Shown here piece after piece: positions 4,328 through 28,201 of a DNA stretch of 32,940 nucleotides. The translations under genes were made by a program, and so were the position numbers. Source of the stretch: a virus; the IMG/VR virus record IMGVR_UViG_3300043773_002058, positions 1-32,940 of that record; one strand, given 5' to 3'. The notes under the pieces were generated by a model. The model ran no database searches, had not been told where the DNA came from, and saw only the letters and a program-made list of their open reading frames with translations. Position 1 is the first letter of the stretch. Each line of letters begins with the position of its first letter.

Positions 4328-5794
4328 GTGAGAACCATTGGCCCACAGCCAGGTCCGCAAACACAGTTTTGTTCCTGCCCGGCTGACATAGCGATCTACG
4401 GCGGTAGCGCGGGTGGCGGCAAAACATTTTGTCTTTTGCTCGATGCGACTCGTGGAATCTACGATCCACTTTGGAATCCTGTTCTGTTCCGACGGACATA
4501 TAAGCAAATCACAGCACCCCAGGGACTTTGGGACAAGGCTTGCGAGCTGTATCCGCTGCTCGGCGGTAGGATGCGGCAAGCATCAATGGATTGCGTGTTT
4601 CCATCCGGTGCTCGAATCAGTTTTTCCCACATGGAGCACGAGCAATCTAAGATCCAGTGGCAGGGAACGGAATTGCCTTTCATTGGTTGGGACGAGCTAA
4701 CACACTTTTCAGCGGGGCAGTTTTGGTATCTAGTTTCGCGTATGAGAAGCCTTGGAAAGATCGAGCCGTACATGAGAGGCACATGCAATCCACAACCGGG
4801 TAGTTGGGTTGCTGAATTGCTTGAATGGTGGATAGATCCGATTGCAGGCACACCGATACCAGAACGAGCCGGTGCACTTCGATGGTTTTGTCGAATGCCA
4901 GACGATTCGATCGCTTGGGCAGATAAGCCGGATGAGCTTCCTCCGGTTTCGACTAAACCGATGAGCTTTACATTTGTTCCAGCGACTTTGGCAGACAACC
5001 CCGCGCTGTTGGCAAAAGATCCTTACTACGCTGATCGACTTCGATCGCTTCCACGAGCCGAAAGGGAAAGCCTGCTAGGTGGAAACTGGCTTTCACAAAC
5101 AGGCGGTGTTTTCGATCGAGACTGGTTCAAGACGTATTCGGTCCTACCTGACGGTGCATTGCAATGGATACATGGTGGCGATGTTGTCAACGCGCCGTCG
5201 TCCGCATTGAGAAGGTTCGCAACAATTGATACAGCCGGTACATCGAAAGATCGAGCCGAGAAAGCAGCAGGTAAGCAGCCGTCTTGGTCGGTGTGTTGTA
5301 TATGGGACTACTATCGACCAAGGCACACTCTATTGCTTCGAAACGTGCTTCGCATTCAAGCTGAATGGTCGGAGCTTGAGGATAGATTCCCGAATTTCAT
5401 TGCTGCTAATGAAGTACCCTTGGTAGTCATAGAGAATGCACACTTCGGGCCGGTGATGGCGAAATCGATCAAGGGTCGCAAGGTGATTCTCGTGGGACCG
5501 AAGATCCCAGGGATGGCCGAAAATCATCGAGGGGCGAAACTCGAGCGCGCCGTCGCGAGTGGGTGCATCAATCGCATCGAGGATGGATTGCTACGCATTC
5601 CAGACTACCAACCGCATCATGCCGATTACGCCTGGCTCAAAGCCTGGCTATCAGAGCATCTAGCTTGGCAGGGACTTCCAGATGAAGTTGCCGACCAAAT
5701 TGATAACACGAGTTACGCTTGCTACTACAGCAAACAGATGCAGGCTACGCCGTGGGGTGGTATCATTCAACAAAGTCACGGGAGGACGCGATGA
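4328..5794 (+). CDS. terL: Terminase large subunit
   Basis: A 488-residue packaging motor that uses ATP to pump DNA through the portal and cuts the concatemer. The ATPase half has Walker A 'GGSAGGGKT' (residues 25-33) and Walker B 'FIGWDE' with D122 and E123. The RNase H-like nuclease half has acidic residues consistent with its active site: D301 in 'ATIDTAG', E369 in 'VVIEN' and D459 in 'ADQIDNTSYA'. The start is GTG 4328, two bases after the upstream stop; no other start fits because Walker A lies so close to the N-terminus. No clear ribosome-binding site is seen, so coupling is likely. It overlaps the next gene by ATGA. The portal gene, usually next, lies 10 kb downstream. Confidence 0.93.
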   Translation: MRTIGPQPGPQTQFCSCPADIAIYGGSAGGGKTFCLLLDATRGIYDPLWNPVLFRRTYKQITAPQGLWDKACELYPLLGGRMRQASMDCVFPSGARISFSHMEHEQSKIQWQGTELPFIGWDELTHFSAGQFWYLVSRMRSLGKIEPYMRGTCNPQPGSWVAELLEWWIDPIAGTPIPERAGALRWFCRMPDDSIAWADKPDELPPVSTKPMSFTFVPATLADNPALLAKDPYYADRLRSLPRAERESLLGGNWLSQTGGVFDRDWFKTYSVLPDGALQWIHGGDVVNAPSSALRRFATIDTAGTSKDRAEKAAGKQPSWSVCCIWDYYRPRHTLLLRNVLRIQAEWSELEDRFPNFIAANEVPLVVIENAHFGPVMAKSIKGRKVILVGPKIPGMAENHRGAKLERAVASGCINRIEDGLLRIPDYQPHHADYAWLKAWLSEHLAWQGLPDEVADQIDNTSYACYYSKQMQATPWGGIIQQSHGRTR

Positions 5795-6276: not shown

Positions 6277-6282
6277 TTGGGC

Positions 6283-7517: not shown

Positions 7518-7952
7518 ATGCCCCCAGGAATTCAAACTCAAGTTGACTCGCTCGTTACCCGTAACGTGCTTTTCGTCAGCGAAGGACGGCCACGAGTAAC
7601 CCTTGTACCACGAGTCCTATCCGGAGCCGCCAGGGATGCGGGGAACACTCCTACTACCACCCTTCGTGGGGGATTGTTGCTCGGAAAGATCACCGCCTCC
7701 GGGAAGCTCAAAGAGTTCGATCCAGCAGCCACGGACGGAAGTCAAAACGTCTATGGTGTGCTGCTCGATGATGTTCGCGTCGTGGACGAGCTCCAACAAA
7801 ATCAAGATCAGCCGCAAGCACGCATCGCGGTGTCAGGCGATGTGAAGGCTTCGACTTTGCTAATCAAAGGTTCGTCCTTGGTTGGCCATGCTTCCGAAAC
7901 CGCAACTCGCACCGCGCTCCGGGCAAAGTTTTTCATTTTCGACGACGAGTAA
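7518..7952 (+). CDS. Head decoration protein (lambda gpD-like)
   Basis: A 144-residue protein matching the head-decoration family (HDPD) pattern: 'TTLRGGLLLGKITASGKLKEFDP', then 'YGVLLDDV', 'ARIAVSGDVKASTLLI' and a C-terminal 'RAKFFIFDDE'. Lambda gpD trimers cap the three-fold sites of the expanded head and stabilise it against DNA pressure. The lambda protein is 110 residues; this one is longer mainly at the N-terminus. It lies directly upstream of the major capsid gene, as in lambda. No clear Shine-Dalgarno sequence precedes ATG 7518; the 56-base upstream gap is A/C-rich and I see no promoter in it. Confidence 0.82.
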   Translation: MPPGIQTQVDSLVTRNVLFVSEGRPRVTLVPRVLSGAARDAGNTPTTTLRGGLLLGKITASGKLKEFDPAATDGSQNVYGVLLDDVRVVDELQQNQDQPQARIAVSGDVKASTLLIKGSSLVGHASETATRTALRAKFFIFDDE

Positions 7953-8011
7953 CGGTCGTCCAAGTTTAGGTTTTCAGTGTCCAAAGTTGGGTGGGACCAA
8001 TCAGGACAACC

Positions 8012-9160
8012 ATGGCCAATTTGTTTCAGGATATTTTTCGCCCCGTCGTTTTGACGAAGGTTATTTCGCAACGTGTCGAAGCCACTTCCAGTTTGCTCAA
8101 ACGATTCGGACTGCAACCGGGTGGACCTAACGAGGTCAATCTTGGCCATGGCCGTTTGGGAGCGTTCCACGTTTTCAACAATACGCTCAAGACGGCTGCT
8201 GGTGCTGCTCCAGGTACCGCTGCTAAGCGGCTTTCCCCTCAAAGTGCATCGAAGATCCCCTTCGAGTACCCAAGGCAATTCAGCCAAATCCCGCTTCTGG
8301 CCGAAACGATTAACAACATCGGTCGAATTGACGATCCGGCAACGCGCGATAAGGCAGGTGCCAAGATGATTCAGTTGCAGACCAACTACCTCTCGCAGCT
8401 TGCCGGAAACTGGCGAACGGCCATGCTCGTTGGGATGCTGCGTGACAGCCTGTACTACACGCAAGAAGGCGAATCCTACTTTTGGCAGTATGCAAGCCAA
8501 GGCTCGACGGGTCAGCTTGCAACGGGCATTCCAGCGAGCAACAAGTCGAAGCTCAACATGCTCGGCGCAGGGAATATTGTTTCTGCCTCTTGGGGGTCGG
8601 AGACTACTGATATTCCAGGGCAAGTCATGGCTATCCATGCAGCTTTCCAGCAGCTAAACGGCTCTGGATTGGCTCAAGTCTTGATCCAAAGCAGCCTTTG
8701 GAACTCGATGATTAAGAACGACTACATTCAATCCGCGCACGGTACCGCAAACGCGCCGTGGATCACCTTGGAAAAGTCTGAGGGGAACGGTCCGGACGGT
8801 CGCCCGTCGCAGGTGATGATTGGCAAATTCAACTTCTGCCCATGGGTTGATTGGTACGTCACGGACGAAGGGCTCGAAATCGGCAAGCCTGGGTCGGAGA
8901 CGTATCAAAAGCACGTTCCCGACAACAACGCCATCTTCCTCGGAAGCGATGTTAGCGGGGGCGATATTGAGTGCTACATCGGCGGTGAGCCTGTTGCCGA
9001 ATACGATGGCGGTCCAAAGACTGAGAAGTTTGGTATGCAGGCTTGGAGCCGGGAAGTCGCGAACCCAACCGCGACCGAACTGTTCTGCCTCGACAACGCG
9101 CTCGTTGTGTCGCACGTTCCGAAGAACATCGCCATTGGCGAATGCGTGTTTGGCGGCTAG
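8012..9160 (+). CDS. Major capsid protein (lambda gpE-like)
   Basis: A 382-residue protein with features of the Phage_cap_E family. The N-terminus 'MANLFQDIFRPVVLTKVI' is typical, the core includes 'ANWRTAMLVGMLRD'-like helices, and the C-terminus ends with 'GMQAWSREVANPTATELFCLDNALVVSHVPK', close to the family's conserved end. It forms the HK97-fold icosahedral shell. Lambda gpE is 341 residues. ATG 8012 is preferred to GTG 7991 because AGGA lies just upstream and the family N-terminus starts here. Its place after the decoration protein and before the connector genes supports the call. Confidence 0.85.
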   Translation: MANLFQDIFRPVVLTKVISQRVEATSSLLKRFGLQPGGPNEVNLGHGRLGAFHVFNNTLKTAAGAAPGTAAKRLSPQSASKIPFEYPRQFSQIPLLAETINNIGRIDDPATRDKAGAKMIQLQTNYLSQLAGNWRTAMLVGMLRDSLYYTQEGESYFWQYASQGSTGQLATGIPASNKSKLNMLGAGNIVSASWGSETTDIPGQVMAIHAAFQQLNGSGLAQVLIQSSLWNSMIKNDYIQSAHGTANAPWITLEKSEGNGPDGRPSQVMIGKFNFCPWVDWYVTDEGLEIGKPGSETYQKHVPDNNAIFLGSDVSGGDIECYIGGEPVAEYDGGPKTEKFGMQAWSREVANPTATELFCLDNALVVSHVPKNIAIGECVFGG

Positions 9161-13944: not shown

Positions 13945-15614
13945 TGGAGGAAGTTTTGACCTATGACGGTATATCGCTTGGAATTGGATCGAAAAGAAAC
14001 GTCGAAGTAACACCCGTTTACGATTCGACAGGCAGACAAATCACTCACCATAGAATTGTCGTCAATGTCGAGTGCATTGTGGCTGAATCGACAGACATTG
14101 ATGATACGGCAGTTGCATTGGAGGAAATTAAACGACGACTTAGCAAGCCTGGAAAAGAACTCGTTATCGAGAACTGTGGAATTGGCGATGCGATCACGAT
14201 CGATGGTAGCGGATACGGTGCAGGGCTACATGACATTAAAGCAGGCCCATATCCAAAGGTAATTCGCTTTGATCCCCTTGGATGGAATGACGACTCCAGC
14301 GCAGTTTCAGTTGTATGGACCTGCGAAGCAAACGTTTTTCTGGCTACAAATGAAAACTTGGAGCTAGGTGAGATTCTTTCGTTCAGTTACTCAGCGAGAT
14401 ACGCCATTGATGATCGTGGATGGACAACACGCACAATTCGTGGAAAGCTCGAAGTTCCACAGAAGCGATATTCCGACAATCAAATTGAACACAATGCAGA
14501 CGCTTACCGTGAAAGAATCAAAATCAAGAAGCCGGAAGGATTCACTCGTGAGCAAGAGTATGACTTGAGCGAGGATAAGGCTGTTCTATCCTTTTCGATA
14601 GTCGATCGACAAATACCGACACGCCAGGCATACCCGCCAGGCGTGGTCGAGATTTCCTGTAATCATCGCGCGTCCAGATCGAGAAGTCAGCTAGCTACGA
14701 CTCGCAATCAGATTTCATTCCGTTGTGAAGTGGCTGCGAACCAGCCTGCTGCTTACGCTTGGTTCGTATTTGAATCGATCGTCGGAAAGCGTCTAAACCA
14801 TTCGCGACAAAACGGTGTGCAGATTCTCATTGAGGAAATCGAGGTAGATGAATCGATTTTCGGGACTGAATTCTCGGCAAGCGTAGCCTATCGAGGTCTT
14901 AGTGACGTTGGAAGCTGGCTGTTCAACGCTGGAATTTTCCAGCCAGTTACGCTTTCCTGGGACCCATGGGAACAATCAGTCCACGAGATAGAGGAACCGC
15001 GAGGTATAGCGAATCTTGCTGCATTAGCGGACGAACAAGACAGGCTGACTAATCTTGAAAATCAGGATTTGCCGGTGATTAAAGACGATCATCACCCTCA
15101 TATCAATTATCTGACACCATCGCAGAGCCCCTTGTGCAACTCTCTCCCAACACCGGAAAAAAGCTGGGCGCACTTTCAAGCACAGGTTGGTTTGTTGCAG
15201 GAATCTCCAAGCCAAGACCAATGGATTCCTCTCGGTCCACAGACGCTTGAAGATGGGGTTGTTTCGCTCCAAGAAATCGGAGGCACAAAGCGAAGAACAG
15301 GAAGAAAAGAAACAGAGACGGTTCTGCCTGTAAACGGTGGTCAAATCACCAAGATTCAATTTAAGGGGGAGGCAATACGAGTCGGTTATGAAATACCGAT
15401 GCCGCGATTGCAGATACCGAACATGGAGCTAAGGCTTTTAACTCGCGAATTCAAGCCTGTGTTTTTAGGCATTCATTATTGCCAGCCTGTATTCGGGGCT
15501 AAATGGGATATGATCTACGCCACAAAGGATTTGCCGAAGGATGGCATGTCTAGTGGGGTGCAAACTAATGGGACCGGTTACAAGGTTCCAGGTTATCCAT
15601 CATCTTCAACATAG
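13944..15614 (+). CDS. Large tail protein, function unknown
   Basis: A 556-residue protein. ATG 13944 shares one base with the preceding TAA (TAATG), with GGAGG upstream; an in-frame start at 13860 would overlap by 85 bases. The first 330 residues look like two related beta-rich halves: 'HHRIVVNVECIVAES', 'VSVVWTCEANVFLAT', 'AVLSFSIVDRQIP' and 'NQISFRCEVAANQPAAYAWFVFES'. The rest is polar with a compact C-terminal domain ending in 'VPGYPSSST'. The alternation suggests a distal-tail or baseplate building block, but I cannot name a family. No catalytic motif is visible. It lies directly after the tape-measure candidate, where distal tail genes are common. Confidence 0.55.
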   Translation: MEEVLTYDGISLGIGSKRNVEVTPVYDSTGRQITHHRIVVNVECIVAESTDIDDTAVALEEIKRRLSKPGKELVIENCGIGDAITIDGSGYGAGLHDIKAGPYPKVIRFDPLGWNDDSSAVSVVWTCEANVFLATNENLELGEILSFSYSARYAIDDRGWTTRTIRGKLEVPQKRYSDNQIEHNADAYRERIKIKKPEGFTREQEYDLSEDKAVLSFSIVDRQIPTRQAYPPGVVEISCNHRASRSRSQLATTRNQISFRCEVAANQPAAYAWFVFESIVGKRLNHSRQNGVQILIEEIEVDESIFGTEFSASVAYRGLSDVGSWLFNAGIFQPVTLSWDPWEQSVHEIEEPRGIANLAALADEQDRLTNLENQDLPVIKDDHHPHINYLTPSQSPLCNSLPTPEKSWAHFQAQVGLLQESPSQDQWIPLGPQTLEDGVVSLQEIGGTKRRTGRKETETVLPVNGGQITKIQFKGEAIRVGYEIPMPRLQIPNMELRLLTREFKPVFLGIHYCQPVFGAKWDMIYATKDLPKDGMSSGVQTNGTGYKVPGYPSSST

Positions 15615-15626
15615 TCGGAGGAAACT

Positions 15627-15974
15627 ATGCTTCAATTTCAGGACGAAACGGTAGAAGTCGGAATCAAGAGGCCAGACGGTGAGGTTAGGCCCGTCAAGCT
15701 CGATGTGCTTGAATTGAGATTGCTATGCCAGGAATTAGAGAGAAAACACAGCCTAAAAAGAGAGGGCTTAAAGGTGTTTGCCACTCGTGATTTCCTGAAT
15801 GATTTCAAATCTCAGCTTGCGACCATGGGGATCGAGGCATCGGTGAATGTTGCCTATCAAATTTGGGCAAGAGCCCAAGAGATTACCGACCAACTAAAAA
15901 AAAACACCGACTCCACGCAACCATCGCCTTCGAGTACGGAATCAACCCCTACGAACTCACAACCAGCCAGCTAG
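15627..15974 (+). CDS. Tail assembly chaperone, short (unshifted) form
   Basis: A 115-residue zero-frame product with a strong CGGAGGA 5 bases before ATG 15627. Residues 1-92 are an ordered helical domain ('VRPVKLDVLELRLLCQELERKHSL', 'VNVAYQIWARAQEITDQLKK'). After the A-run the remaining 23 residues are low-complexity Ser/Thr/Pro (NTDSTQPSPSSTESTPTNSQ). A folded domain with a throw-away tail after a slippery site is the hallmark of the short member of gpG/gpGT-type chaperones. These coat the tape measure during tail assembly. Its place after, not before, the tape-measure candidate is unusual. Confidence 0.65.
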   Translation: MLQFQDETVEVGIKRPDGEVRPVKLDVLELRLLCQELERKHSLKREGLKVFATRDFLNDFKSQLATMGIEASVNVAYQIWARAQEITDQLKKNTDSTQPSPSSTESTPTNSQPAS

Positions 15975-16165
15975 TAGCACTTGAAGCAAACCTTCAACGA
16001 CTAAAAGCCCAAAGAAGAATCGAAAGCGGAGATTACGACCACTCGGACTATCAAGCTGTTTACACACTGTTCCTTATCGCATTTGAAGATGAGGAACTTG
16101 CTAGAGCAGCCCAAAGCAGAGCCGTAGACCGATTCATCGACAAAATGTGCGGGAAAATGAAATGA
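15627..16165 (+). CDS. Tail assembly chaperone, long form by -1 frameshift
   Basis: If ribosomes slip back one base on A AAA AAC at 15899-15905, translation continues in the frame that resumes at 15905 and ends at TGA 16163-16165. This gives a protein of about 179 residues. The added 86 residues look like real protein ('FEYGINPYELTTSQLVALEANLQRLKAQRR', then 'YTLFLIAFEDEELARAAQSRAVDRFIDKM'), while the zero frame there is low complexity. Without frameshifting, 15975-16161 would be empty in an otherwise fully coding operon. The second frame also has a TTG at 15863, so separate initiation is a less likely alternative. The stop overlaps the next gene by ATGA. Confidence 0.7.
15899..15905 (+). promoter_or_regulatory. 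Programmed -1 frameshift slippery heptamer A AAA AAC
   Basis: Nine A residues (15896-15904) are followed by C. In the frame of ATG 15627 the codons are CTA AAA AAA AAC, giving the X XXY YYZ heptamer A AAA AAC. A -1 slip joins exactly the second reading frame. I see no strong downstream stem-loop by eye. Confidence 0.75.
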
Positions 16166-19100
16166 ACAAACCGAACCGTCAGATTAAAAACAGCAAGCCA
16201 CCAGCGAAAACGCGATCGTATGAGCCCATCAAGACTTGGTGGTTGCGCAGACACCAAAGGCTACCGCCTTTGAGTTTTCAAATGATCGAGCAGATTTTGC
16301 TCGACGAAACGATCCAGATTGGATTGGCTTGCCGTAGATCCGTGTTGCAAGGGGTCGAGTTCGGATACAAGGCAAACGGCCAGTGGCAAATCGGTGTGTT
16401 GTGCCAGGATGAAGCTGTTGCAGCCTGGGTAATGCGTCAACTACTAACTCTTTGGCGAATTGGATTGGAGCATATAACACAATCCCAAACCTATGGTTGG
16501 GCTGCCATGGAAGTGATTTGGCAACGCAAAGAGGAATACAACAACCTGTGGGAAATCGTCGGTATCGAGGAACGTCACCCGACTGATACTCGGCTTCTAA
16601 TCAACGACGAAACTGGAAGGCCATGCGGTACGAGATTCTTTCGAGTCAAAGGTGCAGATGAAGGCTATATCGACCTGCACTTTCCTCAATCGTTTTTCCA
16701 CGCTTACAAGCCCAATCCGGGGGAATGGTACGGACAGACGGTATTGTGGGGAGCCTATAGAGCATGGTCTGACAAGCACCTAGACGGCGGTGCAATCGAT
16801 GTTCGCCGACTGTTCATGCACAAAGACGCATACGGGGGGGCCGATTTACAGTATCCGGAAGGTACCACAAACATCGGTACGCTCGAAAATCCAAACGAGG
16901 TACCGAATAGAGAGCTCGCTAGGGAAATCGTCGAACAGATCGAAGCAGGGGGAGTGACAACCACTCCCGCGACCTACGACGAAGCTGGCCACAAAATGTG
17001 GGAACTGACTCGTGCTACTGTACCGGCCAACCCCGCGCACATTTTGAGTTATCCAGGGGATTTGGATGGCGAAATGCTTCGAGGCATGGGGGTACCGGAC
17101 GGGGTTCTTAAAGCCGACGATTCTGGATCTTGGCAGGGACGACTGATTCCCATGCAAATCCTGTACGCCACGCTCGATCCGTGGGTGACTACCATTTTGC
17201 GAGATATTCGCGAACAGTTGCTCGAACCTGCGATCATCAACAATTGGGGTAAGGTGATCGACTTCGAAGTTCAACATCGACCTTTGGCCGAACAAGCCCT
17301 CGAACAGCAGCGAAACCCAGGCGGCGGCGGTGGAGGTATGGACCCCACACAAGGCGATCCGTCAGGTGGTATGGACCCATCTATGATGCAAGGTGATCCA
17401 TCAATGGGAATGGACCCTTCCGCGATGCAGGGCGATCCATCCATGGGGCAGCAAGGGCCACAAATGATGAGCCTAGCAGGTAGGATTGGTTTAGGGCTAG
17501 ACGAACCGACTCGATGGCTCGAAGCGGCGCGGATGGCCATAGACCAACAACAAGACGATCAAGTTAAAAAAAAAGCCAAGATAATAGCGTCGATCCTATT
17601 CGATCTTTTTGGCGATGAGGCTGAGTCACACTTCGATGAAGTGTTTGGAAGCGCAGTACGCATGGCTGCGTGGCGATCGATCGACCATCCACGAGGTTCA
17701 GATGGAAAATTTATCGCAAAAAACTCTCCCGAAGCGGTCCATTCTGCAAAGACCGCGATTCGCGAAGCACTCAAGGGTAAGCGAACTCCTAGCAGCCTAA
17801 AGACCGTCACAGAACACCTCTCGATCCTTACCACGAAGCAATTGCGGAGCTTGCAGAAGGAACACGGCATTCGGGCAAGCGGAGTCAAGCAAACTCTAAT
17901 TGATAAGATCGCGAGTCGCTTACATGGCGCGATCGTTCAATCCGACGAGGAAGCAGACCCAAATCGAGAAAACGGAACTCCAAAGCATGTAAACAGCCAG
18001 GATACCTACACGGTACCAGTTGATTCGCTCCATGTTGATCCAGAGCGATTTCAATACAAGGTCAAGAACATCGATTCTCAGGGCGTTACGGAGGAACTGA
18101 AAAGCGTAGGTGTATGGAATCCTGAAATGGCAGGTGTTCTGCTAGTGTGGAGAGATCCAGACAGCGGCAAGGATTATGTCGTCAACGGCCATCATCGCCA
18201 TCACCTAGCCAAACGACTCGGAGCGAAGCTGCTTAATGTGCGATACATCAAGGCTGATTCGGCTCGTGAAGCTCGTGCAAAAGGAGCCCTTGCAAACATC
18301 GCCGAAGGCCGTGGTACGTCCGTTGACGCTGCAAAATATCTTCGAGACTCCGGACACGACTTGGATCATTTCGCGACGGCTGGAATTAGTCTGAAGGGCC
18401 GTATTGCCGATGAAGCAGGTATCTTAAAGAACCTAGCCGATAGACCATTCGATGCGGTAACTAGGGGCCGACTGGACGAAGCAAAGGCTATTGCGGTTGC
18501 TCGACACATCAAATCGCACGAGCTACAGAACCAGTTGTTCCATAAACTCGATAAAGACGACGATCGCGGCAAGGAATGGTCGAATCGAGAGATCGAGCAA
18601 ATGGCAAAGAAACTTGCTAATTCCGGCCAATACGTCGATCGAGGTACCGACCTTTTTGGGGATTACGAGGAAACTCGATCGACATTCGATCAAGAGGTAG
18701 AAATCGAGGCGTTCGTTGCTAAATCGCTCGCACAAACAGCCAACGATTTCAGAGCCGTGGCAAACAAGCGCAGAGCCGATCGAGTCAGCGATGCAGGTAA
18801 CGTGCTTGCGGTAGATGAGAACGCTATTCGCGCGGACAGGGCTGAGAAAGATTCAAACGATTTTGCAAGGGAGCAGCACCTTCGAGGTAAAGTTGCAGAC
18901 ACGATCAAGTTTTTTGCTGGAAAGCTAGCTCAAGCCAAAACCAAGAAGGCAAAAGAGACAATCAAAATCGATGCTCTACAAGCCGTCTCGGATGCTTTGC
19001 ATAACACTCCGACAATGATGAGTGCCATGCGAGCCCCAAGTGGTTTTACGCACGACCATCCGTTTGTCGTGGCTGGAAAGAGCTATATCGGCGGTCAATT

Positions 19101-22100
19101 CATTCCGTCGGAAGTCGTCGCGCAGGCAACACCTGAACAAAAGAAAGCGATAGAGGCTGCACATAACGCCGATCACGAAACTCCGATTGAACGTGGGAAG
19201 GGCTCGCAGCACGAGAAATACTATCAGCAAGTCCTAACCGGTCGAAATCTCAAGCTCAAAAACGATCATGCTGTGCGTATCACCTACGATCGCTCGACAG
19301 GATTTAAGGTGCAGCATAAAGGGCCAGGAAACATCAGAACAGAGTTTCCGCATCGGTTCAAAAGTGTGCATGAGGCAGCAGACTTCGCCACCGAACAGCT
19401 TATGCGACGAGGAACAATCTTGCCAAAGGCAAAAGCTGCGCAGCCCTCCACGGAGACAGCAGCAAAGCAAGCTCCACCCCCAAAGCCGAAACAACCTTGG
19501 GAAATGACGGCAAAGGAATGGGCAGACAAGACTCAGACAAAGCCTGTGGATCTAGCTCGCACCGCTTTCCAGGGAGGTATTGTCGAGCCGTTTACAAACG
19601 TGTTCCGGAGAAACTTCGGTAGGTCCCAAGAGGATTCCGATTCACTACTTCAAAAATCACTCGATTGGATCAACGGGTATTTCAAGGCAAACAAGTCCAA
19701 CACACTCGAAAGTTTTTCCGAGAAGGACGCATTCAAGCAAGGCTATGCGGATTTCCTGAAAAGCGTCTATGAGCTTTCCGACGGCTACTCTGCTCGTAGA
19801 CAGGCTGAAATCCTCATACCATATTTGCAAACTGCAATTCAGGATGCACCACCGGATCTAGCAGAGGAACACAAGGCTTTCGTACTCAAAGCAATGCTCG
19901 ACGGAGAGAACGTCCCCGACGATGTGCTGAAAGACTACCCTGAGTATCAAGTCATCAAAGACAAAAGGAATGAAGCGGACATTAAGCCACCCAAGGAAAA
20001 ACGGCCTCCATTTCGATATAAGGGCTTTGAGTTTTGGAATAACGGATTAAAAGCAAAATTTCGTGGCAATCTTGAAGCACTCAAAACGCTTCAAGAACTC
20101 AAAGAGCAGAACAGGGAACCAACTCCCGAAGATTTGGAGAAAATGTCGAAGTGGGTTGGTTGGGGCCAGTTTCCAGCGGTCCTCAACGACTACGCAGAAC
20201 GGCACAAGTTACCCCAAGATATTCAGGATGACACGTTTAAGTGGCGCGATGAGCGAAACGAATTGCGTAAGTATTTAGGTGAGGCGGAATTCAAAAGCGC
20301 ACAGCGATCGACCAGGAACGCGCATTACACTCACCCGGAAGTTGTTGATGCTCAGTGGAAGATGGCCGAGAGACTTGGGTTCTCAGGTGGGAGGATGCTC
20401 GAACCGGCTTTTGGTAGTGGTTCCTATGTCGGATTCATGCCTGAATCCTTGATTGGTAAAACTGACGTTACTGCTGTTGAACTTGATTTGAAGTCAGCAG
20501 AAATCGCGCAAGCTCTATACCCCAATGTGCGAGTGGTCCAAAACGCTTACCAGGATACAGCCCTGCCAGCTAATCACTACGATCTGTTTACGACCAATGC
20601 TCCTTTTGATGGTCAACTTTTCATCAAGGACAAGGAAACCGGTATTCGTTGCAATTTGCACAACTATTATTTGCTGCGATCAACGAGAGACACAAAGCCG
20701 GGAGGCTTGGCAATTCTTATGACTTCGACGGGAACTCTCGATCGCCCCGATCCGGAAGTCATGGCTCAAGTCGATAAAAACATGGAATTCGTATCCGCAA
20801 TACGATTCCCAGGGGACACGCACAAAGACAATGCTGGAACGTCGGTAGTCACCGACCTAATCCTCTTGCGACGAAAGAATCCATTGATTCCGGAAACCAC
20901 AGAGGAAACGCCATCGGAAGCCGAGCCAAAACAACCTGGATTCAGCGGAACAACGATCGACTCATTGGGCAGGCTTTACTATTGGCGTGACGGGAAGCGA
21001 GTTCCAAAGCCAAATCTTTCCGAAACGTCCTCTGTTTCGATCGATAGCGATGAACCCCTGAAAATCTCCAAATACTTCGCGGACAATCCAGAGCAAATGC
21101 TAGGCAAGCTCGATCGCACCGGAACGATGTATCGTAAAGGAATGATGAACGTATCCAGGCAGGAAAACTATCAGGATGCGTTAAGGGCAGCTATAGAGAG
21201 ATTGCCACAAAACATAGTTCAAACGGCTTCCGACGAGCAGTTAGCAAGCCATGGAACAAGAGCAAGCGAAAGACGCGAAGCGACAGGAACAAATTACTTT
21301 GAGGGTCAACTTGTGATCCAAGATGGAAAACTTTGGAGGTACGAACAAGGCGGTTTAACAGCGATGGGTGGGGGCGACAAGTCCGCTAGGCTGTTCGGGC
21401 TAACAAGAATCCGAGACGCTGGAAAAGCTCTTTTATCCGGTTCCATTGAGCAACAAGAAGAACTGCGAGCGAAACTGAACGCTGAGTACGATTCATTTGT
21501 GTCAGAATTTGGTCCTATCAACAACGATAAAAATCGGGCCGCGCTCAAATACGAAATCGATGCACCGTTTTTGAAGTCTCTCGAAAAATGGGACCCGAAA
21601 AACAAAACCGCATCGAAGCGAGATATTTTTTCGAAAGATACGATAAGAAAAGAATCGTCTAAGACGGCTTCAACGATTGGTGAGGCTGTTGGAGTATCTT
21701 TGCACGAGTACGGAAAAATCGATGTTGCAAGAATCGCAAGTCTGCTAGGAAAAGATGCTGAAACCGTCGTCGATGAAATTGAGCAATCCGGATTGGCGTA
21801 TTTGCCACCTGGATCTTCCGAGTTTGAATCAGCCGATCAATACCTATCCGGCCATGTGAAAGAAAAACTTCGCATTGCAAGGGAAGCTGCGAACTCAGAC
21901 CCAAGGTATCTCGCGCACGTTGCTGCCCTAGAGAAAAACCAACCGGACGATATTGCAAAAGAGGATATAACGGTCAACTTCGGAGCCGGTTGGATTCCGC
22001 CAAGTACGATCGCCGATTACCTAGCAGAGAAAACCGGGTACGATCAGTCGAACATTCACGTTCTGCATTCTTCCGCTGTTGCTAAATGGGACGTTACGCT

Positions 22101-24954
22101 AAACGGACGGGCTGATAATTTAGCGACGGCGATGGAATTCCAGAATTACTATTCCGTCGGTGACATATCCGCGATGGATATGATTAAGGCTGCGCTGAAT
22201 GATTCTAACGTGTCAGTCTACACAGAAGCCGCTGATGGTAAACGCGCATTGGACGTAGACGCGACTGCGGAAGCAAAGGTAAAGCTACAAGAGATCCGAG
22301 ACGATTTTGCCGAGTGGATTTTTGGCACAGAAGAACGAGAGAAGAAATACACTCGTCTCTACAACGACACAGAAAACGACATTAAGGAACGCACGTTTGA
22401 TGGTAGCCACCAAGCCTTTCCGGGAATGGTCGATTTTGAAGCAGATCGAATGTATCAGATCCAGAGAAACGCCGTTTGGCGAATCGTCACGACTGGACGA
22501 GCGTTGCTTGCACACGAGGTAGGTACTGGAAAAACAAATACAATGGTCGCTTCTGCGATGGAACTGCGACGCTTAGGATTGGCAAAAAAACCGGTTATCG
22601 CCTGCTTAAAAGCGAACGTGGAACAGTTAGCGAAAGAGGCTCAAGAACTGTACCCTAACGCGAAAATTCTTGCTCCTACAAAATGGGGTAAAGAGCATCG
22701 ACGCGAAGTTCTCAATCAAATCGCTACTTCGGATTGGGATCTAATTATTATTTCTCACGACAACCTTGAGGGATTGGCAATCAAGGGAGAAACAAAGGAA
22801 AAACTGATTAGAGAAGAAATGCGAACGGCTGAGGCCGCTTTGATCGAAGCCAGAAGAATCCAAGATGAATCAGAAGGTGGTAAGAAATCACGTTTCGGTA
22901 ATCGGATTGTCAAACAGATCGAGGGGCAATTGGCGAATCTTGAGGAACGTATGAAAGAGGCCCTTGGATCAATCGGAAGGGACGATATTTACTTTGAGGA
23001 TCTTGGAATCGATCAACTTTTTGTCGATGAGGCACATCAATTCAAGAGCCTCCCTGTCTACACTTCGAAGAACATCAAAGGCATACCAACCAACGTAAGC
23101 AATCGCGCTTTGGATATGCTTTTCAAAACCCGCTACCTACTCGACAAACACAACAATCGCGGTGTTGTATTTGCGACAGGCACGCCAATCTCGAACACGA
23201 TGGCCGAACTTTACACTATGCAGCGGTTCATTCAACCAAAGGAAATGCAACGTAAGAATCTTGAACACTTTGACGCTTGGGCAAAGAATTATGGTCAAAC
23301 AACATTTGGCTATGAAACCAAGCTAACAGGCGAAAGGAAGCAGACGGAAAGGTTCGCCAAGTTCATCAATGTTCCTGAACTTCGAACGCTCACGAGCGAA
23401 TTTATGGACGTCCAGTTTGCTGATAATGTCGTCAACTCAAAAGGCGAAAAGGCAATCAAGCGTCCAAAGAAGCAGGAAATCGCCAACGTCTCGGAAGAAA
23501 ACGACGCAGTTCGAAATTTTATGGCGGAAATCAACGATCGCGCTCTATCCCTAAAAGACAATCCCGACAATGGAGACAATTGGTTCTCGATTCTTCACGA
23601 TATGCGAATGGGATCTTTAGACCTGCGACTCGTGGATATGGATGCCGAGGATCATCCGGACAGTAAAGTGAATAAATGCGTGAAAAATCTATTGCAGATC
23701 GCAGCAGAAAATCCAGGTAAAACGCAATGCGTATTTTCCGAACTTGGGGTACACGAGGGGGACGATGGTAGGATTAGTCTGTTCGACGACATTATCAACA
23801 AGTTGGTTGCTAATGGCATTCCACGCGATGAAATCGCCAACTTTTCCGACGCGAAGATGAAAGATGATGTTAGAGACACAACGCAGGAAAAGATGAAGCA
23901 GGGGGCGATCCGTTTTGGCTTTGGGTCTACTAAGACGCTCGGAACCGGAGTCAACGTACAGACCAACCTAAAAGCGATTCACCATCTTGATTGTCCTTAT
24001 GTTCCAGCAGCACAAGAGCAAAGGAATGGTCGAGGGTACAGGCAGGGGAACAACCTTTACAAAGAGGGTGGTTCTCTTGGAATCCATCGTTACGTCCAGC
24101 AAGGCTCCGGTGATGAAATGCTGTGGGGGATCATTGCTCGTAAAACCAACTTCATCAACGGTTTTATGCGGGGCTCTGGTAATCGGGAAATGGAGGACCT
24201 GAGCATTGAGGAATTGAGTCCAGAAGAAATGCAAGCACTTGCAACTGGCGATGAACGTGTTCTCAAGCAAATGCAGTTAGAGAACCAGTTGAACCAACTA
24301 AACAGAGGGTCGCAACGGCACAATGCTGAAATGCAGAGGGCTCGCAACACGATCGAAACCGCACCCACGAGAAAGCAATCCTATTTGGATGCGATTGAAA
24401 AGCTAACCGACTCGATTTCGCGAGCTCACCCTGATTTTTCGATCGATATTGGAAACATGGGCAAGTCGCAGGATATTTCTCGCAAGGATGCCGAAGCTGA
24501 GCTTCAAAAGATGGTTGACAGCAAAATCAACGATCGCAATCTGTCGTACAGTTCCTCGAAGATAGCGGTTGGCAAGTATCGTGGCTTCAATCTCGTTATG
24601 AAACGTAACTACTATTCCTCAGACAAACCTTACGAATTCGCACTCGAAAACCCCGTCAATGGTGAATCCTACGGGTTCAGTGGAACTACTAAGTATCCAT
24701 CGCTCCAATCGGCAGACTACGCAATCCGCGCTTGGAAAAACCAGCTAGAGTCGCTCAACCGAGTTTATTTGACCGTGGACGAAGAAGTAAGTCGCGCAAA
24801 AACCATGCTTTCCAAGCCTTATCGGTACGCTTCTGAATTGGAAAACACCAAGAAAGAACTAGAATCGTTAGCGGAAAAGATCAGGGCTGATCGAGAAAGA
24901 GTCATGGCGGCAACCAAATCCAAGGTAGACGAATCGATCAAGCGGGGTGAGTGA
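16162..24954 (+). CDS. Portal protein fused to DarB-like methyltransferase-helicase
   Basis: A 2930-residue uninterrupted frame; ATG 16162 overlaps the upstream stop (ATGA). Residues 1-385 look like a Mu gp29/DUF935 portal ('GLACRRSVLQGVEF', 'QTYGWAAMEVIWQ', 'GMGVPDGVLKADDSGSWQGR'). Residues 386-440 are a Gly/Met/Asp/Pro/Gln repeat linker. A SAP-like helix pair lies at 554-590 and a ParB-like domain with 'VNGHHRHHLAKRLGA' at 614-710. An N6-adenine methyltransferase-like domain has 'LEPAFGSGS' at 1413-1421 and 'NAPF' at 1479-1482. A SNF2/DEAH helicase has Walker A 'GTGKT' (2121-2125), DEAH (2289-2292), 'ATGTPISNT' and 'QRNGRGYRQG' (2620-2629), followed by coiled coils. The part after the linker resembles P1 DarB, an antirestriction protein carried in the head. 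The fusion is seen directly; the DarB role is inferred. Confidence 0.85.
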   Translation: MNKPNRQIKNSKPPAKTRSYEPIKTWWLRRHQRLPPLSFQMIEQILLDETIQIGLACRRSVLQGVEFGYKANGQWQIGVLCQDEAVAAWVMRQLLTLWRIGLEHITQSQTYGWAAMEVIWQRKEEYNNLWEIVGIEERHPTDTRLLINDETGRPCGTRFFRVKGADEGYIDLHFPQSFFHAYKPNPGEWYGQTVLWGAYRAWSDKHLDGGAIDVRRLFMHKDAYGGADLQYPEGTTNIGTLENPNEVPNRELAREIVEQIEAGGVTTTPATYDEAGHKMWELTRATVPANPAHILSYPGDLDGEMLRGMGVPDGVLKADDSGSWQGRLIPMQILYATLDPWVTTILRDIREQLLEPAIINNWGKVIDFEVQHRPLAEQALEQQRNPGGGGGGMDPTQGDPSGGMDPSMMQGDPSMGMDPSAMQGDPSMGQQGPQMMSLAGRIGLGLDEPTRWLEAARMAIDQQQDDQVKKKAKIIASILFDLFGDEAESHFDEVFGSAVRMAAWRSIDHPRGSDGKFIAKNSPEAVHSAKTAIREALKGKRTPSSLKTVTEHLSILTTKQLRSLQKEHGIRASGVKQTLIDKIASRLHGAIVQSDEEADPNRENGTPKHVNSQDTYTVPVDSLHVDPERFQYKVKNIDSQGVTEELKSVGVWNPEMAGVLLVWRDPDSGKDYVVNGHHRHHLAKRLGAKLLNVRYIKADSAREARAKGALANIAEGRGTSVDAAKYLRDSGHDLDHFATAGISLKGRIADEAGILKNLADRPFDAVTRGRLDEAKAIAVARHIKSHELQNQLFHKLDKDDDRGKEWSNREIEQMAKKLANSGQYVDRGTDLFGDYEETRSTFDQEVEIEAFVAKSLAQTANDFRAVANKRRADRVSDAGNVLAVDENAIRADRAEKDSNDFAREQHLRGKVADTIKFFAGKLAQAKTKKAKETIKIDALQAVSDALHNTPTMMSAMRAPSGFTHDHPFVVAGKSYIGGQFIPSEVVAQATPEQKKAIEAAHNADHETPIERGKGSQHEKYYQQVLTGRNLKLKNDHAVRITYDRSTGFKVQHKGPGNIRTEFPHRFKSVHEAADFATEQLMRRGTILPKAKAAQPSTETAAKQAPPPKPKQPWEMTAKEWADKTQTKPVDLARTAFQGGIVEPFTNVFRRNFGRSQEDSDSLLQKSLDWINGYFKANKSNTLESFSEKDAFKQGYADFLKSVYELSDGYSARRQAEILIPYLQTAIQDAPPDLAEEHKAFVLKAMLDGENVPDDVLKDYPEYQVIKDKRNEADIKPPKEKRPPFRYKGFEFWNNGLKAKFRGNLEALKTLQELKEQNREPTPEDLEKMSKWVGWGQFPAVLNDYAERHKLPQDIQDDTFKWRDERNELRKYLGEAEFKSAQRSTRNAHYTHPEVVDAQWKMAERLGFSGGRMLEPAFGSGSYVGFMPESLIGKTDVTAVELDLKSAEIAQALYPNVRVVQNAYQDTALPANHYDLFTTNAPFDGQLFIKDKETGIRCNLHNYYLLRSTRDTKPGGLAILMTSTGTLDRPDPEVMAQVDKNMEFVSAIRFPGDTHKDNAGTSVVTDLILLRRKNPLIPETTEETPSEAEPKQPGFSGTTIDSLGRLYYWRDGKRVPKPNLSETSSVSIDSDEPLKISKYFADNPEQMLGKLDRTGTMYRKGMMNVSRQENYQDALRAAIERLPQNIVQTASDEQLASHGTRASERREATGTNYFEGQLVIQDGKLWRYEQGGLTAMGGGDKSARLFGLTRIRDAGKALLSGSIEQQEELRAKLNAEYDSFVSEFGPINNDKNRAALKYEIDAPFLKSLEKWDPKNKTASKRDIFSKDTIRKESSKTASTIGEAVGVSLHEYGKIDVARIASLLGKDAETVVDEIEQSGLAYLPPGSSEFESADQYLSGHVKEKLRIAREAANSDPRYLAHVAALEKNQPDDIAKEDITVNFGAGWIPPSTIADYLAEKTGYDQSNIHVLHSSAVAKWDVTLNGRADNLATAMEFQNYYSVGDISAMDMIKAALNDSNVSVYTEAADGKRALDVDATAEAKVKLQEIRDDFAEWIFGTEEREKKYTRLYNDTENDIKERTFDGSHQAFPGMVDFEADRMYQIQRNAVWRIVTTGRALLAHEVGTGKTNTMVASAMELRRLGLAKKPVIACLKANVEQLAKEAQELYPNAKILAPTKWGKEHRREVLNQIATSDWDLIIISHDNLEGLAIKGETKEKLIREEMRTAEAALIEARRIQDESEGGKKSRFGNRIVKQIEGQLANLEERMKEALGSIGRDDIYFEDLGIDQLFVDEAHQFKSLPVYTSKNIKGIPTNVSNRALDMLFKTRYLLDKHNNRGVVFATGTPISNTMAELYTMQRFIQPKEMQRKNLEHFDAWAKNYGQTTFGYETKLTGERKQTERFAKFINVPELRTLTSEFMDVQFADNVVNSKGEKAIKRPKKQEIANVSEENDAVRNFMAEINDRALSLKDNPDNGDNWFSILHDMRMGSLDLRLVDMDAEDHPDSKVNKCVKNLLQIAAENPGKTQCVFSELGVHEGDDGRISLFDDIINKLVANGIPRDEIANFSDAKMKDDVRDTTQEKMKQGAIRFGFGSTKTLGTGVNVQTNLKAIHHLDCPYVPAAQEQRNGRGYRQGNNLYKEGGSLGIHRYVQQGSGDEMLWGIIARKTNFINGFMRGSGNREMEDLSIEELSPEEMQALATGDERVLKQMQLENQLNQLNRGSQRHNAEMQRARNTIETAPTRKQSYLDAIEKLTDSISRAHPDFSIDIGNMGKSQDISRKDAEAELQKMVDSKINDRNLSYSSSKIAVGKYRGFNLVMKRNYYSSDKPYEFALENPVNGESYGFSGTTKYPSLQSADYAIRAWKNQLESLNRVYLTVDEEVSRAKTMLSKPYRYASELENTKKELESLAEKIRADRERVMAATKSKVDESIKRGE
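17338..17448 (+). repeat. Degenerate 39-bp tandem repeat in the portal linker
   Basis: Two 13-residue units of the form MDPS(M/A)MQGDPSMG are coded at 17371-17409 and 17410-17448. An imperfect 11-residue copy (MDPTQGDPSGG) precedes them at 17338-17370. The units are Met-rich, and the first is preceded by GGTGGAGGT, a Shine-Dalgarno-like stretch. Copy number could change without loss of frame. Confidence 0.8.
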
Positions 24955-25325
24955 TGGCCAGCGATTACAAAGATCACGAATACTACGAACTGTTGGAAAG
25001 ATCCCTCGAACACTTTCCAGACTTCTTGAACCATCTTAAACGAGGGGACAGGCTCGAATCCTATCTCAACTTCCATACCAAGCAGGCAATCGAAGCCTAC
25101 GACGATGCGATGGAGGACGATGAGGACGATCGAGCAGCAAAAGAAATCGCGATGGAAACATTGCTTTCGCACTTGAAGGAAATGGAATTGGAGCAGTCCA
25201 ACAATCCAGACTTTAGCGACGCAGCCATTGAATCCGCCGATTTAGACAACATCGCAGGGATGCAAGCCTATTTGAAATGGAAGTATGGAGACTCGAATGA
25301 ACCACCCAAATCGCCGCCTAACTGA
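24954..25325 (+). CDS. Small acidic hypothetical protein
   Basis: A 123-residue protein. ATG 24954 overlaps the upstream TGA by one base (TGATG) with GGGGTGAG just before it; an in-frame GTG lies one codon earlier. The protein is acidic and helical ('YYELLERSLEHFPDFLNHLKRG', then 'DDAMEDDEDDRAAKEIAMETLLSHLKEMELEQ') and ends in a Pro/Asn tail. There is no membrane segment or Cys motif. I recognise no family. Its position between the portal fusion and the zeta-like kinase suggests a role with one of them, for example as a partner or an internal head protein, but nothing in the sequence proves this. It overlaps the next gene by 29 bases. Confidence 0.6.
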   Translation: MASDYKDHEYYELLERSLEHFPDFLNHLKRGDRLESYLNFHTKQAIEAYDDAMEDDEDDRAAKEIAMETLLSHLKEMELEQSNNPDFSDAAIESADLDNIAGMQAYLKWKYGDSNEPPKSPPN

Positions 25326-26820
25326 TACTTCGGTCGTCCGCTTGGGATTGCAACCAGGTGCAACAATGCAACGTGGGGGCAAAACTTTTGTCCTCAATGA
25401 ACACCATCGATGGACGCTTCCGAAGCAAAAAGCTGCTACACAAAACAAGCCGCGATCGATGGAAACCGATACGGCCAAGGAGCCCAAGCAGCCACCCCCG
25501 CAACAACCAACCGCAAAGGCTGGATCGCAACAGGCTCCACAAGCCAAATCTCAAGCACCCGAAGCCCAACCGGGATCTTCTCCACAATTCGACAAAGCGA
25601 CTGGACGTAAGCTACCAGGATCTTCTGCTGCCCAATCTCCAACGAGTCAACCAGCAGCCGAAAAGCCGACCACGCCAAAACAACCGACCGATCGGCCACA
25701 AGCCCCACAAGGTTCACCTAGTCCTCAACCGCAAGCTAAACAACCGTCCAATCAACAACCAGCCAGCCAGCCAAAGCAGCCTCAATCCGACCAAGGTGAC
25801 GACCAAGACGATGATGAACCAATTGGGCCGCCGATCGATGCAAAAGCCGATGCGGATTTCAACCATGATGGGATCACCGATCAAGCGCGAGTCGGAGTAC
25901 CGGCCAATTTGGTACCCCCCCCGCCTGGCATCCCTCGAATCAAATCGTTGACCAAGAAGCAAGCCAAGATCCAAGAGGATTTTTGCAAGTGGGTCGAAAA
26001 TGATCCAGACCAGGCGGTAAATCAAGCTCTTGCACTCATCACAAACGAGGCTCATTCAAAGGGTAGGCCACCTACCTTTGAAACCGATCAGATGAAAGTT
26101 TTGAATAAGAATTGGGACAGCGATGAACTGTCTCAAAATCTAAGCCAAAGATCAGCAAATAGAGCCAAGTACAATACTGCCCTGCATCAAGCAGCCAATG
26201 CGCTCTGCAAGAAAGCGTTTGTTGAATACGTTAAAACACTCAAGCCCGGAGATGAAATTCTGGTTACTGTAGGTGGGTGTGGAGCCGGGAAGGGGTATTC
26301 GTTGGCAAAAGATAAAGACGGAAAACCATTCGTTCCAGAGGCTCAAGAGTTGATGAGACGCGCGGCAGTTGTTTGGGATTCCGCAGGGGATCAGAACGCG
26401 ACAGAGAACACCTGGTTACGAGACGTTGCCAATAACCATGGGCTGAAATTGTCGTTCCTGTTCGTCCACAACGACCCATACAAAAGTTGGGCAGGTGAAA
26501 TGGGCGCCGTCAATCGAGCAATGAAGCCTGACAACGGTCGCATGGTAGATGCGAAAGTGTTTGTTGATTCCTATGTCATCGGAGCACAAAACCATGCCAA
26601 TTTTCTTGCACAACACTCTCACGACGCAAACATTTCATCTGTGATTGTCGATTGCAGTTCCGGAAAGCCTGTAAAAACCGATCGTATGCCGGAAACCGCG
26701 CTTGAGTTAGACTCGAAGCAACTTGAAAAGCATTGCATTCAGACTATCCAGCAAAGGAATGATGTGCCTGATTACATCCGTCAGGCGGCACTCCAAGGGC
26801 AAAAAATTTGGAGCAGATAA
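25297..26820 (+). CDS. Zeta-like P-loop kinase with long Pro/Gln-rich linker
   Basis: A 507-residue protein. I prefer ATG 25297 because GGAG lies 6 bases upstream; ATG 25285 lacks a usable site. A short N-terminal module ('MQRGGKTFVLNEHHRW') is followed by about 130 residues rich in Pro, Gln, Ala and Ser. An EF-hand-type loop 'DADFNHDGITD' starts at residue 185, and a C-terminal kinase-like domain covers about 220-507. The latter has P-loop 'GGCGAGKG' (326-333, K332), 'VVWDSAGD' (D361) and 'NRAMKPDNGRMVD' (R407, R415). These match the order of motifs in zeta toxins, which phosphorylate UDP-activated sugars. No epsilon-type antitoxin is recognisable nearby. I infer a virion-carried or host-directed enzyme; a nucleotide kinase is the alternative. 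Confidence 0.65.
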   Translation: MNHPNRRLTDTSVVRLGLQPGATMQRGGKTFVLNEHHRWTLPKQKAATQNKPRSMETDTAKEPKQPPPQQPTAKAGSQQAPQAKSQAPEAQPGSSPQFDKATGRKLPGSSAAQSPTSQPAAEKPTTPKQPTDRPQAPQGSPSPQPQAKQPSNQQPASQPKQPQSDQGDDQDDDEPIGPPIDAKADADFNHDGITDQARVGVPANLVPPPPGIPRIKSLTKKQAKIQEDFCKWVENDPDQAVNQALALITNEAHSKGRPPTFETDQMKVLNKNWDSDELSQNLSQRSANRAKYNTALHQAANALCKKAFVEYVKTLKPGDEILVTVGGCGAGKGYSLAKDKDGKPFVPEAQELMRRAAVVWDSAGDQNATENTWLRDVANNHGLKLSFLFVHNDPYKSWAGEMGAVNRAMKPDNGRMVDAKVFVDSYVIGAQNHANFLAQHSHDANISSVIVDCSSGKPVKTDRMPETALELDSKQLEKHCIQTIQQRNDVPDYIRQAALQGQKIWSR

Positions 26821-26886: not shown

Positions 26887-27129
26887 ATGAACGACCCGAC
26901 TAGCCTAAAAAACGAAGGCCATCCAGCGTCAAGTGAATGGAGCCCGGAGGACATTGCGGCCTTCATCAAGGCCGAGGATGAACGCGACAAGGATCACGAG
27001 GATTTAGGAAAACTAGCTCGTGAAAATGGATTCGGTTGCCCAGCGGATTCGGAGGCCCCTGACAAATCGAAGCCAAAAGACGACACCGAGGATTCGGACG
27101 ACTCCGACGATTCATCCGATGATAAGTAG
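26887..27129 (+). CDS. Small acidic protein with Asp/Ser tail
   Basis: An 80-residue protein with a strong GGAGG 6 bases before ATG 26887. The N-terminal half contains a predicted helix ('SPEDIAAFIKAEDERDKDHEDLGKLA'). The C-terminal 25 residues are Asp/Ser/Lys-rich and end in DDSDDSSDDK. Highly acidic tails occur in DNA-mimic inhibitors, in head proteins that contact basic partners, and in disordered linkers; the sequence does not decide between them. It follows the 66-base gap after the kinase gene and overlaps the gpF-like gene by 11 bases, so it belongs to the head-gene operon. Confidence 0.6.
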   Translation: MNDPTSLKNEGHPASSEWSPEDIAAFIKAEDERDKDHEDLGKLARENGFGCPADSEAPDKSKPKDDTEDSDDSDDSSDDK

Positions 27130-28201
27130 TTTCGATCCATCGACCGGTCATGTTCTCATGGCACTTGGTCGGAACGGTAAACGGGACAATCGGCTGAAAG
27201 AACTCGACAAGCTGATTTCCATGGCTCTGATAGGTGCTGAGTCAGCTTCATTTGTTCAGCGCAGGCGAATTCTCAATCTTGTGTCAGGTAAATGGCAACG
27301 CTCGATGCCGGAAGTCCTACAGGCATTGCATGTGCCTATGAGCCGCTTGCGAGAATTACTTGCCAAGAGATTTATGCAAACGTACATGGTTGCATTTCTT
27401 GGTGGAATGCGGCATGTTGAATCCAAGCTCCCTAGATGGCTGCTGGTTGAGCTTGTAAAAATCGCTCGTGAGGACAACAGCGTACCGCCTTGGGACCCTC
27501 GACTTCCGAAGCATGGGGCCGATGGGGGGGACTCTGTTCGATTCTGGATTCTCGAAGAAGCGGCAAAGCGTCTTGCCAGCCGATCGATTCTGACGCGATC
27601 GCAATGGGACGCATTGGAAAAGACAGCGAGAGAACGAGCTTTCTTCGTGACGGCTCCAATTTCAAGCGATGTGATTGAATCTATTCGCGATGTAATGCTC
27701 GAAGATTTGCAGGATGGGACAAGTTATCAAGGTTTCCGAAAGAAGATCGAGGAACGGTTAGAGAAAAGCCCGATTGGGTATGGCCAGCTTGAAACCGTCT
27801 ACCGAACCAATATGCAGGCAGCTTTTCGAGACGGCCGCGAGACTCTGTTACGCAATCCTATCTTCGATTCGGCTTTCCCGTATCAAGCCTATGTTGCCAT
27901 TCACGACGCTAGAGCCAGGCACGATCACCTACGATTGGAAAAGCTAGGGCTCAACGGTACCAACGTATTCCGACGCGATGATCCTGTTTGGGACTATTTC
28001 ACGCCCCCATGGGACTACAATTGCCGATGCGGTGTGAACGTGTTGACAATCGAGGATGCAGCAAGAGCCGGTGTTGAGGAAGCAAGGAATTGGTTGAGAG
28101 ACGGTCAGCCGCCGCTGAATCCTCAACATCGATTGAACGAAGTGTTGCGATCCGTCACCCCAAACCCCAACTTTGGATCGAGGGGCTTAGTTTATGCCTG
28201 A
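27119..28201 (+). CDS. Minor head protein (Mu gpF-like/SPP1 gp7 family)
   Basis: A 360-residue protein. I chose ATG 27119, which overlaps the previous stop, over ATG 27020, which would begin in a basic frame shadow. The C-terminal half has the MuF pattern: 'YGQLETVYRTNMQAAFRDGR', 'HDARARHDHLRLEKLGL' (H262, D263), 'DDPVWDYFTPPWDYNCRCGV' with C302 and C304, then a helical tail. gpF-type proteins sit at the portal vertex, and some family members carry fused toxin domains. None is seen here; the kinase gene upstream may fill that role in trans. It lies two genes after the kinase and about 2 kb after the end of the portal fusion gene. Confidence 0.85.
   Translation: MISSFDPSTGHVLMALGRNGKRDNRLKELDKLISMALIGAESASFVQRRRILNLVSGKWQRSMPEVLQALHVPMSRLRELLAKRFMQTYMVAFLGGMRHVESKLPRWLLVELVKIAREDNSVPPWDPRLPKHGADGGDSVRFWILEEAAKRLASRSILTRSQWDALEKTARERAFFVTAPISSDVIESIRDVMLEDLQDGTSYQGFRKKIEERLEKSPIGYGQLETVYRTNMQAAFRDGRETLLRNPIFDSAFPYQAYVAIHDARARHDHLRLEKLGLNGTNVFRRDDPVWDYFTPPWDYNCRCGVNVLTIEDAARAGVEEARNWLRDGQPPLNPQHRLNEVLRSVTPNPNFGSRGLVYA

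Follow-up and report, generated by a model that had tools for sequence, protein, structure and literature searches.

A Mu-type phage portal protein joined in one reading frame to an exchangeable cassette with a DarB-like methyltransferase and SNF2-type ATPase

Why would a phage encode its portal protein and a DarB-like antirestriction enzyme as one polypeptide, and where would such an enzyme work? The question is raised by the window, the 32,940-nucleotide stretch of viral DNA analyzed here, for which an earlier note made from the sequence alone had described a continuous 2,930-residue frame from 16162 to 24954. Translation of the window bore this out, giving no internal stop between the ATG at 16162 (or a GTG at 16147) and the TGA at 24952-24954 (Table 1). 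The ATG overlaps the stop codon of the preceding ORF and the TGA overlaps the start of the next ORF, and the fusion gene is therefore a member of a tight late-gene run. Two small-to-medium genes separate it from the gene for the MuF minor head protein, which immediately follows the portal in many relatives. Upstream of the portal, a 584-aa protein (13860-15614) conserved in nearly all relatives had no match in Pfam or PHROGs. The gene in the scaffold/protease slot was considered as a head protease candidate, which was unsupported by Pfam, by hhalign to Mu gpI, and by a fold model (pLDDT 52); neither a cleavage site nor a confirmed head protease was found for the portal-DarB fusion.

Table 1. 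Features of the portal-DarB frame and of its head-gene setting in the window.
Feature	Position	Strand	Residues	Remark
Terminase large subunit	4328..5794	+		context gene
Gene in scaffold/protease slot	6277-7461			no Pfam match
Lambda-D-like decoration protein	7518-7952			context gene
Major capsid protein	7991..9160	+		context gene
Neck protein	starts 9663			between capsid gene and possible tape measure
Possible tape measure	starts 11878			upstream of portal fusion
Single frame: portal, linker, SAP-like, ParB-like, mid module, DarB-like MTase/SNF2	16162..24954	+	1-2930	2,930 aa, about 329 kDa
Portal domain, Mu/DUF935-type	16162..17331	+	1-390	Portal_Mu score, fold search, slot by MuF
Gly/Met/Asp-Pro-rich linker, then short helix motif	17332..17496	+	391-445
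SAP-like region	17497..17979	+	446-606	weak SAP matches at 556-594
ParB/Srx-like domain	17980..19020	+	607-953	GHHR motif; phrog_21 match
Mid module	19021..20010	+	954-1283
DarB-like N6-methyltransferase and SNF2-type ATPase	20011..24951	+	1284-2930	phrog_10089
Methyltransferase motifs	20401..20607	+		EPAFGSG (1414), NAPF (1479)
SNF2/SF2 motifs	22522..24042	+		GTGKT (2121), DEAH (2289), TGTP (2339), QRNGRGYR (2620)
Small acidic DUF1896-like protein	24951..25325	+		directly 3' of DarB cassette
MuF minor head protein	27020..28201	+		PF04233, E=5e-13

To the N-terminal part, Portal_Mu (PF06074; gathering score 23.9) matched over residues 41-206, with 26.1 bits for residues 1-410 alone, 27 bits in the six-frame search, and 22 bits, slightly under the gathering score, for the whole 2,930-aa protein. 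The same model matched 19 of the 21 members of the portal family, and a single-sequence hhalign of the portal part against Mu gp29 gave no match. An AlphaFold2 model of residues 1-410, calculated from an alignment of 21 rows (pLDDT 75 on average and above 90 in much of the core), displayed a portal fold spanning residues 33-395. Foldseek matched this predicted structure to the G20c portal with an E value of 5e-13, and the Z scores of a fold search were 20.1 for the G20c portal and 15.4 for each of the Mu and P1 portals; the G20c alignment covered 319 residues with an rmsd of 11, some parts being flexible or poorly modeled. Portals occurred throughout the best 50 of both PDB lists (Foldseek and the Z-score search), including those of HK97, lambda, and T4 besides G20c, Mu, and P1, and among the matches listed the top PDB rows were portal, neck, or connector entries. 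The DUF935-like portal proposed in the earlier note was thus recovered both by a Portal_Mu score above the gathering score and by structure prediction. In all 19 records checked there was one portal of the Mu/DUF935-type family. A second PF06074 match was found neither in the window nor in seven relatives, and PF04860, PF05133, and PF05136 (HK97-, SPP1-, and lambda-type portals) had no match in eight records, these records being linear and possibly incomplete. A tblastn search among cultured phages detected no relatives of the portal part.

The fold alignment ends at residue 395, equivalent to residue 396 of G20c, toward the C-terminus of the chain. The crown of a portal faces the interior of the head. 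In P1, the C-terminal end of the portal is described as the crown (PMC12810830). A cargo fused to this end would therefore start inside the capsid.

At the other end of the frame, residues 1287-2922 matched phrog_10089 (DarB-like antirestriction) with an E value of 0, P1 DarB aligned over three segments at 26-31% identity (best E 2e-18), and Pfam matches to SNF2 and Helicase_C were found. G-x-G and N-x-P-F of the methyltransferase are invariant in an alignment of portal-fused and other relatives, as are the key SNF2/SF2 residues. Both the portal and the DarB matches are far beyond chance. As the earlier note had recognized, the C-terminal part is predicted to be an N6-adenine methyltransferase followed by an SNF2-type ATPase, the DarB-like order; all motifs are intact. 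No strong internal ribosome-binding site for a separate DarB was found in the frame, which is not decisive. The portal precedes DarB in the frame, and an N-terminal capsid-targeting peptide on a separate protein, as P1 DarB has, is absent. We take a separate protein with a targeting peptide to be a trait of P1 DarB and not general to DarB-like proteins.

Between these ends, the domains named in the earlier note fared unevenly. The ParB-like domain aligned with columns 954-1352 of phrog_21 (E=1e-95), its G-H-x-R is conserved, and a weak match to ParB in the PDB was obtained, whereas the SAP-like region was indicated only by weak matches (E about 0.003-0.02) and has a homologous counterpart in L002, L010, L099, and L110-L117. 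The ParB-like assignment of residues 607-953 is thus a putative one, founded on phrog_21 homology and the weak PDB match; BLASTP of this domain against P1 DdrB gave no match. PHROG 21 is titled "portal protein," yet its C-terminal 400 columns are the ParB-like domain, and the name can misdirect the annotation of ParB-containing proteins such as the ORF at 3913-8319 of L012. The short helix motif after the linker is also present in most cargo-less portals. In the mid module, the part APSGFTHDHPFVVAGKSYIGGQFIP travels with the DarB cassette or, in relatives, lies between the portal and ParB.

Searched with the portal, IMG/VR yielded about 50 relatives with a gene order closely like that of the window. 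The earlier note had asked whether portal and enzyme are encoded separately in all relatives, and this is not so: portal and DarB share one frame in 13 further contigs, 14 in all (the window, L002/L003, L090/L091, L092/L093/L096/L097, L094 (=L125)/L095, L119/L120, and L152), which represent six sequence types, including the window, with portals as low as 42% identical. Near-identical fusions occurred in different metagenome datasets (L092/L093/L096/L097 and L119/L120/L152), and independent contigs holding portal and DarB in one frame ruled out an assembly chimera. The closest relative, L002/L003, has the portal, linker, SAP region, ParB, mid module, and the start of the methyltransferase in one frame, at 52-85% identity to the window, with saturated synonymous sites and conserved amino acids. 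Between L119 and L120, dN/dS was about 0.03-0.06 in the portal, linker, methyltransferase, and helicase and 0.29 in the mid module. The remaining possibility of an assembly artefact or a decaying fusion, to which a frameshift near residue 1510 of the short contig L003 and a stop in L089 might point, is hardly credible against 13 further contigs with an open portal-DarB frame, purifying selection, and intact motifs.

The cargo behind the portal varies. Bare portals of 460-562 aa occupy the same slot in L100, L101, and L108, with MuF next in L100 and L108, and one was also found in the planctomycete metagenome-assembled genome (MAG) contig L124. Portal-ParB proteins are encoded in L088, L099, L102, L104, L117, L118, L122, L126, L127, and L110-L116; other cargos are a Zeta toxin (L010 and L117), a primase-like protein (L011), a 2H/Acb1-like protein of the anti-CBASS type (L105 and L114), 2H with an ADP-ribosyltransferase (L134), and topoisomerase IB (L128). 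L089 has a TAA stop at position 11088, where the portal domain ends; it comes from the single base by which this contig differs from L088 over 3.1 kb. A programmed stop at the portal end was set aside on account of this one-base difference from a near-identical contig. Among genome collections, the portal matched only in two planctomycete MAGs (L123 and L124), a weak hint of a planctomycete host.

Comparison of closely related contigs showed exchange between portals. Identity between L125 and L096 is 97% along the 11.5 kb that end with the portal and about 90% downstream; their portals are 99% identical but their DarB parts only 42-46%, and the match is lost at the linker, around portal residue 410. 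The converse was seen for L090 versus L096/L093, of which the portals are 81% identical with diverged synonymous sites and the DarB parts 93-97% identical (dS 0.13), the break lying inside the mid module. The cassette was also exchanged between portal and MuF: in L149 and L157, mid module and DarB sit on the C-terminus of MuF, which was identified by Phage_Mu_F matches (E=1e-9 and 1.5e-12) and is encoded downstream of a portal-ParB fusion. In a wider DarB tree, one clade unites both MuF-fused DarBs with the other portal-fused ones (100/100), leaving the L125 type outside. A single origin of portal-DarB, seen as one clade (98/96) in a portal-biased sample, was set aside since the L125 type lies outside in the wider sample; two captures of DarB by portals are suggested, not forced. 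The swaps, together with the grouping of MuF-fused with portal-fused DarBs, indicate that the DarB cassette moves between carriers. Residues 1-390 appear to be the portal subunit of the phage and the other 2,540 residues an exchangeable cassette, here SAP-ParB-mid-DarB.

A DUF1896-related acidic ORF follows the DarB cassette in the window and in L090 (16926-17351), L093 (7719-8111), L119 (17013-17378), L149 (14900-15268), and L157 (about 15895-16266), so that it usually trails the cassette whether the carrier is portal or MuF. Its product may be a partner of DarB, help to localize it, or inhibit it. The P1 gene ulx, beside darB, is listed as aiding DarB localization (PMC9024508), and the acidic ORF recalls it in position. 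Several cargo-region proteins carry one to three copies of a motif of about 25 residues, MALQPGTTKVxNGKTYVLNENHRW: at the N-terminus of the window protein at 25285-26820, in L088 and L099, and inside the fusions of L125 (portal-DarB residues 2534-2557) and L157 (MuF-DarB residues 2162-2187). It is possibly a module boundary, a sorting element, or a processing element.

Fusions of portals with effectors are already known. The polyvalent proteins of Iyer et al. (2017, PMC5512222; 2022, PMC9503650) likewise join a virion domain to disparate effectors among late genes; portal fusions with 2H, InPase, and Nudix have been interpreted as proteins that are packaged and injected, a fusion of PBECR to a portal is also reported, and the DarB dyad is described in polyvalent proteins. 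The passages on portal fusions mention neither a portal-methyltransferase-SNF2 dyad nor exchange of DarB among portals or between portal and MuF. The window frame shares the polyvalent trait of unlike activities in one polypeptide amid virion genes; it contains no HExxH, and thus the zincin-like metallopeptidase trait, common but not required in such proteins, is absent. P1 DarB, a head protein against type I restriction, has the same order of methyltransferase and SNF2, but it is encoded by a separate gene, with the portal gene prt as a separate neighbor, and is targeted by its N-terminal 30 residues at about 40 copies (PMC9024508). The closest cultured-phage matches were giant DarB proteins (Erwinia phage Pavtok, BcepIL02, VvAW1, and others; residues 1270-2917, about 30%), which also hold the dyad inside a larger protein but, unlike the window protein, have about 3,600-5,000 aa and in several cases are annotated with a lytic transglycosylase. 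MuF effectors (Jamet et al. 2017, PMC5576092; SPP1 gp7) resemble the present system in placing exchangeable C-terminal cargo on a portal-associated head protein, with MuF directly after the portal; here, the portal is the main carrier and MuF bears the DarB cassette in L149/L157. The earlier note knew of no such portal, and in the open-access literature we found no portal fusion with DarB or a methyltransferase and, again among open-access papers, no DarB cassettes alternating between portal and MuF.

The reading that we somewhat favor is that the fusion is a polyvalent head protein, in which the portal would serve as a capsid address and the cargo would be carried in, freed, and ejected with the DNA, which it would protect from restriction. 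The portal C-terminus points into the head, and thus the ring would deliver up to 12 cargo copies, about 3.4 MDa, to the procapsid, so that fusion would do the work of the N-terminal targeting peptide of P1 DarB. The portal targets SPP1 gp7/MuF to the procapsid (PMC6316719), and MuF effectors are thought to use a portal-guided route into it (PMC5576092). Both portal and MuF are built into the procapsid at its vertex. Neither ATP nor S-adenosylmethionine would be expected where the portal remains, on the emptied head outside the cell. The other cargos (ADP-ribosyltransferase, 2H, topoisomerase IB, Zeta, and primase-like) are predicted to be of kinds that act inside the host, and since the portal never enters the cell, the simplest course is for the cargo to come free either ahead of ejection or in the course of it. 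Most likely, proteolysis during maturation would cut the cargo loose, either in the Gly/Met-rich linker, the obvious release site, or beyond it, and the cargo would exit the head together with the DNA. Once in the new host, its methyltransferase and SNF2 motor would act on entering DNA and shield it from restriction, as P1 DarB does, and the ParB-like domain may contribute binding to DNA or nucleotides. The DNA of P1 is believed to be accompanied into the cell by DarB (PMC9024508, PMC12810830).

The main rival is that the cargo stays on the ring and is active during packaging in the producing cell, marking DNA before it leaves. The C-terminal cargo on the inner face of the portal, the presence of ATP and S-adenosylmethionine at that time, and intact enzyme motifs with no protease site found are consistent with such action, but the ADP-ribosyltransferase, 2H, and Zeta cargos make most sense in a new host, and the protection given by P1 Dar is explained by delivery along with DNA (PMC12810830, PMC12707154); we regard it as unlikely. 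Slightly less probable still is its extended form, a packaging vertex acting as a DNA-modification machine in which a portal-bound methyltransferase-SNF2 protein writes an antirestriction pattern on progeny DNA.

Of similarly low probability to packaging-time action is a mixed ring, in which early termination, partial proteolysis, or leaky translation leaves most portal subunits without cargo and a few with DarB. Twelve cargos of 285 kDa would be bulky, MuF-fused relatives presumably carry few copies like SPP1 gp7 (PMC5576092), and the L089 stop is absent from its twin L088; that stop, however, could reflect a sequencing error or a nonviable variant, and the window frame has neither a stop nor a strong internal ribosome-binding site. 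Taken with the cargo swaps, the DarB cassette on MuF gives weight to the cleavage and mixed-ring alternatives of the earlier note.

The main proposal of that note, an uncleaved enzyme fixed at the vertex that modifies or shields exiting DNA during infection, is very improbable: its location at the vertex fits, but the vertex, which remains outside the cell, would lack cofactors there, DarB of P1 is believed to go in, and MuF carries the same cassette in L149/L157. This shared cassette and the cargo swaps favor a portal that tags cargo for loading over one that serves as its place of work.

How P1-type DarB protects DNA in cis has been an open question since 1987, and its mechanism is still unresolved (PMC12707154, PMC11109961). 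An enzyme tied to the vertex and exchanged between portals and MuF makes location, copy number, and release directly testable. The portal ring appears to double as a loading label for enzymes in the phage head, and the portal as a polymorphic cargo carrier would be a natural route to load large proteins into phage heads.
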